From positions 62,001-126,000 of the forward strand of contig NZ_JARUKW010000009.1 in NCBI RefSeq assembly GCF_029688845.1: 64,000 nucleotides of DNA, in the 5' to 3' direction. Numbering within the stretch: position 1 is the stretch's first letter; each line of letters opens with the position of its first letter. Shown piece by piece: positions 58,328 to 60,515 of this stretch. Below the pieces are notes generated by a model. The model had not been told where the DNA came from, ran no database searches, and saw nothing but the letters and a program-made list of their open reading frames with translations. The translations under genes and the position numbers were made by a program. Source of the DNA: Natronococcus sp. A-GB1 (GTDB lineage Archaea > Halobacteriota > Halobacteria > Halobacteriales > Natrialbaceae).

Positions 58328-59611
58328 CTACGAGAACGAGGACAGGTCGACGCGCCCGCGTGTCGAGTCGGTACTGTCGGCGAGTTTGTCGTAGGGCGGT
58401 AGCTCCTCGAGCGAGTCGTCGCGGCGGACGGCCTTGACGATGTGTTTCGGATCCGTGACGAGCCGGTGGAGGAGGTAGCTTCCCTGGGAACGTCCCCCGC
58501 CGGTCTTCTCGGACTCGATGACGCCTAAAAAGGCCTGTTCCTTGAGCTGGCGGTAGAGCCCGTTCTCGGTGATCGGGTCCGTCGCGACCAGCTCGCAGAT
58601 GTCGGCGTAGCGCTCGTAGATCTCGCGGGTCTTGTAGGTCTCGCGGTCGCCGGTGACGATACAGCTCGCCAGCGCGTACAGCGCCAGCTTCGCGTGGGCG
58701 GTCGCCCCGCTGGTGAGCTCCTCGATCCGGTTGATCTCGGCGACCTCCTGAGCCTGCTTGATGTGGCGCTCGGAGACGCTCTCGGAGGCCGTGCGGCGCG
58801 CGAGCTCGCCGGCTTCCTTGAGGATCTCGATTGCCTTGCGCGCGTCGCCGTGTTTCTTCGCCGCGAGGGCGGCACAGAGCTCGATCGTGCCGTCCTCGAG
58901 CACGCCGGGTTGGAAGGCGTCCTGCCGATTTCGCATAATCTCCCGGAGCTGTGCGGCGTCGTAGGGGTGAAAGAACAGCTCCCGGTGGCCGAAGCTGCTG
59001 TCGATCCGTTCATCGAGGGTCTCGCGGTACTGGACCTTGTTCGAGATGCCGATGACACCGATGTAGGCGTCGGTCTTTCGGGCCTCGCGGGCCCGCGAGA
59101 GCTGCATCAGGATGTTACTGTTGTCGAGCTTGTCGATCTCGTCGAGGATCACGATCACCGAGTCGAAACAGTCCTCGAGGATCGACCAGATGTGCTGGTA
59201 GTACTCCATTGTACCGACGCCACGGACCGGAATATGCTGGTCGTAGCCGGTCTGGTCGGCGAGGCTAAGCGCGAGCTGGCGGGTCGCCCGCGTTTCGGTG
59301 TTGGCTTCGGAACAGTCGACGTAGAGCACGCCACAGCCGATCTCGTTGTCATCGGCGGCATCCCGGGCCCGTGTCGCGACGTGGCGGGAGATGAGACTCT
59401 TCCCGGTCCCGGTCTTGCCGTAGATCATCACGTTGTTCGGTGGATCGCCCCGCGTGATCGCCCCGACTTCGGCGGCGACGGACTGGATCTCGTCGTCCCG
59501 GCCGACGATCCGGTCCTCCTCGGGGACGTGGCCGACGTGCAGGAGTTCCTTCCGATTGAAGATCGGATCCTGCGACTGGAAGAGGGGATCCCCACCGGCC
59601 TGTTCGGTCAT
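58328..59611 (-). CDS. Orc1/Cdc6 replication initiator
   Basis: 427 residues. The AAA+ domain has Walker A IYGKTGTGKSLISRH (about 63-77), Walker B VIVILDEIDKLDN, the sensor 1 segment GVIGISNKV with YRETLDERIDSSFGHRELFF (box VII/arginine finger) and sensor 2 in GDARKAIEIL. The C-terminal winged-helix domain (TREIYERYADICEL and GGGRSQGSYLLHR) binds origin-recognition boxes. Its start at 59611 faces an AT-rich segment flanked by inverted ORB-like repeats, and another repeat lies after its stop, so it most likely initiates replication at this origin. Confidence 0.96.
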   Translation of the reverse strand: MTEQAGGDPLFQSQDPIFNRKELLHVGHVPEEDRIVGRDDEIQSVAAEVGAITRGDPPNNVMIYGKTGTGKSLISRHVATRARDAADDNEIGCGVLYVDCSEANTETRATRQLALSLADQTGYDQHIPVRGVGTMEYYQHIWSILEDCFDSVIVILDEIDKLDNSNILMQLSRAREARKTDAYIGVIGISNKVQYRETLDERIDSSFGHRELFFHPYDAAQLREIMRNRQDAFQPGVLEDGTIELCAALAAKKHGDARKAIEILKEAGELARRTASESVSERHIKQAQEVAEINRIEELTSGATAHAKLALYALASCIVTGDRETYKTREIYERYADICELVATDPITENGLYRQLKEQAFLGVIESEKTGGGRSQGSYLLHRLVTDPKHIVKAVRRDDSLEELPPYDKLADSTDSTRGRVDLSSFS

Positions 59612-59785
59612 GTTGCTGTCCTTGGAGAGTTGTATAATAAAACTATGGAAGGTAGCTCAGACTGATAAGGTATCTCGAGCGGCGTTGAACCGATGTATTT
59701 CGAGAGAATCGGCGCGAGCGGGCCGGAGGCCGCATGCAGACTGAACTGCAGGGAGACTCCACCGATGTTTTCGGCCTCTGTTCGA

Positions 59786-59841
59786 CCCCACCCCCACCCC
59801 TCGTTCAGAGTGTAACGGCTCGAGAGAGGGTGGGGGTGGGG
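59786..59841. repeat. ORB-like repeat B inside a 14-base G/C-run inverted repeat
   Basis: CCCCACCCCCACCC (59786-59799) is the exact reverse complement of GGGTGGGGGTGGGG (59828-59841). Between them lies the ORB core, whose minus strand reads GTTACACTCTGAACGAGGGG. The core plus flank (59797-59824) is identical over 28 bases, in inverse orientation, to 60474-60501. The G-runs can form a cruciform or G-quadruplex. Confidence 0.8.
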
Positions 59842-60060
59842 TGATGAGAAACGGCAGTGGGTAACCACGGGATTGAGACAGTAACTGCTGTGAGGACGTG
59901 ATAGTTCATTCACCATACACCCATCTCGAACGTAGCGTGAGTGTGTCTAGCGTTCCCTGTAGCCAAGGTCTACTAGTTAGTATTATATTTTGTGTTATAG
60001 GTTATTATTGCTGGGAAATGGCAATGTCTAGAACACCTCTAGTTAGTTACTGTGTCTTTC

Positions 60061-60133
60061 TAGATATCTATCTAGTGTCCAGGCATAGACATTCAGAGAG
60101 ACAGTCCACCACGATATGCTAGTTGCTAACTAG
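60061..60133. repeat. Palindromes in the AT-rich origin segment
   Basis: TAGATATCTA (60061-60070) is a perfect palindrome and CTAGTTGCTAACTAG (60119-60133) is a 6-3-6 inverted repeat. Both contain or abut CTAG and lie in the putative unwinding region. Confidence 0.6.
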
Positions 60134-60384
60134 GTCAAAGATAACATACTCCAAGACAGCGTGCTACACGAATCGACACCTACATCGGTCCAGAACAAGG
60201 ATGCTGGCAGTATACCGTATCTACACAGCAGCGTTTGCTCCCCTTTTCCGCTCTGATCTAGGGACTGTGTAAAATTGTCGCGAGACAACCCAGCTGTGGT
60301 GATTCCGAACGATACGCCGGTTTCTCGCTGAGTATCTTTCCCACCCTCGTGCCCTACAGGCAGTGGGACACCTTCGAAGCCCTT

Positions 60385-60412
60385 TTCACTCTGAACGAGG
60401 GGTGGGGGTGGG
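60385..60412 (+). repeat. ORB-like repeat C with long G-run
   Basis: TTCACTCTGAACGAGGGG followed directly by TGGGGGTGGG. Same core and same G-run as repeat B but on the opposite strand, as expected for a pair of ORBs that face each other across the unwinding element. Confidence 0.78.
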
Positions 60413-60418
60413 CACACA

Positions 60419-60436
60419 CCCCATTCAGAGTGAAAA
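60419..60436 (-). repeat. Partial ORB-like repeat D
   Basis: CCCCATTCAGAGTGAAAA carries the TTCAGAGTGAA core in the opposite orientation to C, 7 bases after its G-run, but only a short C-run (CCCC) instead of the usual longer one and no CG spacer. It may be a weak site. Confidence 0.55.
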
Positions 60437-60473
60437 CCTGCAGTCAGCTATCGCCGCTTCCCCGAGCTTCCCG

Positions 60474-60501
60474 CTCGAGCCGTTACACTCTGAACGAGGG
60501 G
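60474..60501 (+). repeat. ORB-like repeat E
   Basis: CTCGAGCCGTTACACTCTGA followed by ACGAGGGG, identical to the inverse of repeat B over 28 bases, followed by ACCGGGGG. It is the outermost right-hand box. Confidence 0.78.
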
Positions 60502-60515
60502 ACCGGGGGACGGGG

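Follow-up and report, generated by a model that had tools for sequence, protein, structure and literature searches.

We could confirm that an AT-rich segment beside an orc1/cdc6 initiator gene of Natronococcus sp. A-GB1 carries a real cluster of CTAG tetranucleotides, located between the inverted ORBs of a locus that is, by its anatomy, an Orc1-linked origin. We consider it very probable that the cluster is under selection in this lineage and belongs to the origin, whereas methylation-dependent control is our leading reading at modest confidence. We assign a probability of roughly 0.45 to the combined explanation, namely that selection maintains the CTAGs within the AT-rich opening region and that they take part in a methylation-based control of re-initiation. 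The origin is an example of unusual clarity for the CTAG clusters that were proposed for such loci in 2016.

CTAG counts, origin anatomy and other CTAG groups of the genome

The window, i.e. the whole stretch of 64 kb that was analysed, contains 25 CTAG by exact count. Nine of them are found inside the segment listed in Table 1, in agreement with the preliminary description, which had counted nine in about 320 bases, and its by-eye estimate of about fifteen elsewhere turned out to be close to the exact number of 16 in the remaining 63.7 kb. The segment of 319 bp has a GC content of 44% compared to 65% for the window, and 1.2 CTAG would be expected in it from base composition and 3.1 from dinucleotide shuffles. 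At least nine CTAG were reached in one of 5000 dinucleotide shuffles (P = 0.0002), which retain the CT, TA and AG steps contributed by the CTAGs themselves, and never in 5000 base shuffles. For the rest of the window the 16 observed CTAG stand against 104 expected from dinucleotides, and over a wider stretch of 3 kb the dinucleotide shuffle does not set the observed CTAG apart from the expected, owing to the general depletion of CTAG and to the share that the CTAGs have in the dinucleotides being shuffled. A fair comparison therefore needs real DNA of similar composition. In 1.19 Mb of the 4.5-Mb genome, the sample used for the genome-level frequency, CTAG occurs 0.32 times per kb, and 320-bp windows at 40–50% GC outside the origins hold 0.37–0.45 CTAG on average and three at most, by which composition alone is ruled out as the cause of the cluster. 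Non-coding runs (at least 150 bp, taken from a rough ORF mask) have 0.85 CTAG per kb and 1–2 per kb at 45–55% GC, compared to 28 per kb in the segment. CTAG is alone among the palindromic tetramers in showing a strong excess there; a packing of GATC was ruled out, as the segment has a single copy.

A neutral explanation would be that genes avoid CTAG and that AT-rich non-coding DNA simply does so less. The frequency of CTAG is in fact lower in genes than in DNA that is non-coding or AT-rich, but this explanation is largely refuted by the GC-matched windows with about 0.4 CTAG per 320 bp vs 8–9 here. AT-rich orc1 upstream regions of another family (f3, see below) are without clusters, and a CTAG is retained at most 12 bases from the end of a conserved core while its exact offset varies, both of which also speak against neutrality, and we consider it very improbable.

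The claim that the segment belongs to an origin was likewise borne out by the anatomy of the locus, which points to an Orc1-linked origin with its orc1 gene, inverted ORBs and AT-rich stretch. The segment is intergenic and upstream of the orc1/cdc6 gene, whose product shows 99% identity to Orc1 of Natronococcus amylolyticus, and inverted ORBs with G-string are present on both sides of the AT-rich stretch, as seen from the ORBs at 59803, 60387, 60423 and 60486 and from the GC profile. Haloarchaeal origins have been described by Wu et al. (2012) as an AT-rich stretch between inverted ORBs with G-strings beside orc/cdc6, and our locus resembles them in all of these elements, although CTAG goes unmentioned there (PMC3528665). 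The AT content and the position between the ORBs are what would make the segment a putative unwinding element. A search for structured RNA at the origin gave no Rfam match, and sigma-70-type and terminator scans of the locus gave nothing useful, their models being ill-suited to archaea.

Table 1: Features of the origin (positions in the window).
Feature	Position	Strand	Basis
orc1/cdc6 initiator gene, 427 aa, divergent from the origin	58328..59611	-	TIGR02928, 389.9 bits
ORB-like half site TTCAGTCTGCATGCGG	59731..59747	-	sequence; kept in relatives
ORB with halophile G-string GTTACACTCTGAACGAGGGGTGGGGGTGGGG, orc1 side	59785..59817	-	fits the ORB/G-string description in PMC3528665
AT-rich segment with nine CTAG	59944..60262	none	44% GC; exact counts, shuffles, GC-matched windows
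CTAG starts in the segment	59947, 59973, 60028, 60039, 60060, 60072, 60119, 60130, 60258
CTAG one base beyond the core end	59973..59976	none	core comparison across Natrialbaceae origins
Conserved AT-rich core CACAAAATATAATACTA (family consensus CRTAANATATAATACTA)	59978..59994	-	weight matrix, 30.3 bits
CTAG quartet, start spacings 11, 21 and 12 bp	60028..60075	none	sequence comparison
CTAG-N7-CTAG pair	60119..60133	none	also present in N. amylolyticus
ORB with G-string TTTTCACTCTGAACGAGGGGTGGGGGTGGGC, distal side	60383..60413	+	sequence
Inverted ORB GTTTTCACTCTGAATGGGGTG	60417..60437	-	sequence
Third distal ORB GTTACACTCTGAACGAGGGGA	60482..60502	+	sequence

Groups of three CTAG within 72 bp were counted just six times in the 4.5-Mb assembly (overlapping matches merged), and three of these six are upstream of orc1/cdc6 homologues, namely the window origin, C16:44969, where 36 bp contain six CTAG, and C12:82064. 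As orc1-upstream DNA amounts to about 22.5 kb, at least three of the six would fall there by chance with P about 2.5e-6. Looser CTAG groups are present at the orc1 loci on contigs C34 and C2. At these other orc1 loci of the genome the CTAG clusters are located in the AT-rich part and the flanking repeats differ; by eye, the CTAGs on C12, C34 and C2 lie between repeats whose sequences vary from origin to origin. The three remaining triplets (C9:38361-38416, C57:14041-14059 and C20:3-39) have no orc1 hit alongside. One of them is between divergent ORFs with an aldo/keto reductase-like one on one side, one is upstream of an OsmC-like ORF (both by eye) and one is at a contig end.

The conserved core and its adjacent CTAG

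The orthologous origins of the same family (Natrialbaceae) have the AT-rich core CRTAANATATAATACTA in common. Using a weight matrix seeded from a CTAG-free core string, the window copy scores 30.3 bits, and no other site in the 1.19 Mb sampled from the genome exceeds 17.0 bits. In 21 of 21 distinct core-bearing Natrialbaceae origins a CTAG starts between −3 and +9 from the core end, where density alone predicts about 17% per origin; the set, from which locus L039 with its best core match far from its AT-rich part had been removed by hand, includes related species that are not independent, so that an overall P is withheld. The CTAG density in these 21 origins, which were picked without reference to CTAG, is 14.3 per kb. 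The offset of the adjacent CTAG from the core end is 1 in most Natronococcus, 5 in most Natronorubrum and 3 in several Natrinema, and additional CTAGs are located upstream of the core in Natronococcus and mostly downstream of it in other genera. As the word is kept near the core while offsets and other CTAGs move between genera, the comparison suggests that selection acts on CTAG itself. The shared AT-rich core with a nearby CTAG in all 21 core-bearing origins is a new detail; the core is not described in the freely accessible literature that we searched, subscription literature being outside that search.

In 31 family origins 103 CTAG are found at most 120 bp from the core vs 51.8 in shuffles (z 8.3), and among the other 15 palindromic tetramers the biggest excess in the same origins is that of ATAT (z 4.2), with some loci of this set having been retrieved by a CTAG-containing pattern. 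At least four CTAG in 320 bp are present at 15 of the 35 same-family orc1 loci (hand count), and orthologous loci without the usual ORB array (e.g. L022 and L024) show neither core nor cluster. Of the 391 genomes of the order, 24 have the exact core-plus-CTAG pattern, and 20 of these belong to the family of the window. In the CTAG quartet the spacing is largely retained in Natronococcus relatives and the spacer bases differ. The conservation of CTAG columns in five Natronococcus origins is 75% vs 62% for neighbouring bases and marginal (P = 0.06). A longer consensus containing CTAG was ruled out, as the flanks vary among relatives. Outside the family, seven CTAG in 320 bp together with a weaker core-like site are found in Actinarchaeum halophilum (L053 and L270), where the CTAG group is located about 900–1000 bp upstream of orc1.

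The CTAGs might also serve as an operator or promoter element within the origin and regulate orc1 or a transcript of the origin, as the AT-rich core can be read as a TATA-like element with a CTAG just downstream and some repressor binding sites contain CTAG (PMC6471742). We regard this as improbable, since the core is 383 bp away from the orc1 start with an ORB in between, Rfam gave no match and the origin-wide array exceeds the needs of an operator.

The CTAG methyltransferase and its distribution

The idea of the preliminary description that CTAG methylation acts at this origin depended on orthologous origins being richer in CTAG than their AT content predicts and on a CTAG methyltransferase being encoded in the genome. 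An enrichment beyond composition is indeed seen in the orthologous origins, and a PF01555 homologue, a 352-aa protein, is present at C4:18865-19920 of the same genome. It shows 49% identity over its length to the enzyme of plasmid pFZ1, which from this plasmid we take to be M.MthZI. M.MthZI is a characterised m4C CTAG enzyme (PMC5867850), and by homology both the activity and the target of a CTAG methyltransferase are predicted for our protein. The pFZ1 homologue adjoins an MjaI-family nuclease. Since no homologue of this nuclease, the one nuclease family covered, was found in the genome of strain A-GB1, its methyltransferase is apparently an orphan. The genome has a second PF01555 match at C55:208731-208928 (L099:940-2001), which is part of a 353-aa open frame.

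The methyltransferase was found in 348 of the 391 genomes of the order and MjaI-family nuclease homologues in 13 of them. Every same-family genome among the 391 has the enzyme, and none of the 23 enzyme-negative genomes named by set difference belongs to the family of the window, so that the clade with dense clusters offers no case of enzyme loss against which to compare them. In genus g28 (probably Halorubrum) the enzyme is located about 0.1 kb from an MjaI-family nuclease in five of the six enzyme-bearing genomes. A correlation of enzyme and clusters within this genus was set aside, as there are no clusters to lose and the enzyme is mostly beside the nuclease. Homologues of methyltransferase and nuclease at this distance are found in G153, G203, G208, G262 and G333 (all g28), G096 and G324 (both g46) and G382; these pairs are apparent CTAG restriction-modification systems and occur mostly in genera that are often without the orphan enzyme.

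In family f3, which includes Haloferax, at least four CTAG in 320 bp were found at two of 40 loci with the methyltransferase and at none of 40 loci without it, these 80 orc1 upstream regions belonging mostly to paralogues and not orthologues of the window's Orc1. In this family the presence of the methyltransferase is no predictor of origin CTAG clusters. Six further families in which the enzyme is common (f2, f4, f5, f9, f10 and f11) reach the same density at four of 38 loci, and the enzyme is therefore far more widespread than the clusters. The f3 data are a new caution against inferring function from the co-occurrence of enzyme and motif. A mobile origin class, with 74–99% likeness between families, retains its few CTAGs in genomes both with and without the enzyme. 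At L165-L171, L240, L241 and L278-L282 an orc1-origin unit occurs whose upstream DNA is 74–99% alike along about 640 bp in families f2, f3 and f9, which suggests a recent spread between lineages.

The mobile origin class with its CTAGs in enzyme-less genomes and the f3 counts also speak for the main rival, according to which CTAG is either recognised by a protein that occupies the opening region as cooperative arrays or acts as a flexible element with TpA that aids melting, with methylation being incidental. The start spacings of 4–5 and 8–12 bp that recur around the core, according to a statistic that ignores phylogeny, would fit such a role as well. On the other hand a candidate protein is lacking, and it would be a coincidence that a conserved orphan methyltransferase targets the same word. 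We nevertheless regard a role of CTAG in protein binding or melting, without any part for methylation, as a real, if tentative, possibility.

Proposed methylation-based control and known systems

According to the explanation that we prefer, with the CTAGs as selected methylation targets in the opening region, Orc1 would bind the inverted ORBs on both sides of the AT-rich stretch and the DNA would open within it, probably in the vicinity of the conserved core. The orphan enzyme of the cell would be expected to place m4C on both strands of CTAG. Firing of the origin would then produce many hemimethylated CTAGs beside the core at once, and these could delay or mark re-initiation, presumably through a reader, until they are remethylated; that methylation times or gates initiation, as first suggested for this segment, is plausible. 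The explanation is supported by the CTAG-specific excess near the core, the adjacency in 21 of 21 origins, the turnover of positions, the recurrence within the genome and the universal enzyme of the family. Against it stand the counts in f3 and in the six families, the mobile class without enzyme, the normal growth of Haloferax volcanii described below, the lack of a known reader and the marginal P value of the column conservation. A more far-reaching version, in which the core and an obligatory, positionally mobile CTAG form a new archaeal origin module whose m4C state controls opening as the first archaeal counterpart of the Dam/SeqA type, appears rather unlikely to us.

At oriC of Escherichia coli, the site of the Dam/GATC/SeqA system, GATC is packed in the opening region and Dam is an orphan methyltransferase. 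Both origins share many copies of a palindromic methylation target in the opening region and an orphan enzyme, but E. coli has m6A, DnaA and SeqA in contrast to m4C, as judged from the enzyme family, and archaeal Orc1 here, and with its one copy GATC is not enriched in the Natronococcus segment. To our knowledge there is no SeqA counterpart or other reader of hemimethylated CTAG.

In H. volcanii m4C at CTAG has been demonstrated, and Ouellette et al. (2018) reported that CTAG is raised only at oriC2, where GATC is enriched too (PMC5867850). The species has the M.MthZI-like enzyme HVO_0794 and with oriC2 an origin of increased CTAG density, as in our case, but differs in that one origin only is affected and GATC is enriched as well. 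Growth was normal in the strain deleted for the enzyme and showed no defect in the absence of CTAG methylation, although the species is able to grow without origins (PMC5867850). The negative growth result comes from a species with raised CTAG at a single origin and with dispensable origins. If methylation has a part anywhere in the control of archaeal replication, it is best tested in Natronococcus and its relatives, whose clusters are dense and whose orphan enzyme is universal, and the core-plus-CTAG module is a precise mutational target.

The hypothesis of control by methylation is not new, as Blow et al. published it in 2016 (PMC4752239). They described CTAG clusters upstream of haloarchaeal orc1/cdc6 genes, several per genome (Fig. 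6D there), correlated them with a conserved orphan methyltransferase and proposed replication control by methylation. Of these features, an increased CTAG density ahead of orc1/cdc6 genes at orthologous loci of several species and an apparently orphan enzyme gene are also seen here. Motif, position, several orc1 genes per genome, enzyme family and proposed role are the same in both studies. The earlier one dealt with motif density, whereas the core with its adjacent CTAG, the turnover of positions and the missing correlation in f3 are added here. The motif appears as CATG in the main text of Blow et al. and as CTAG in their figure legend (PMC4752239).
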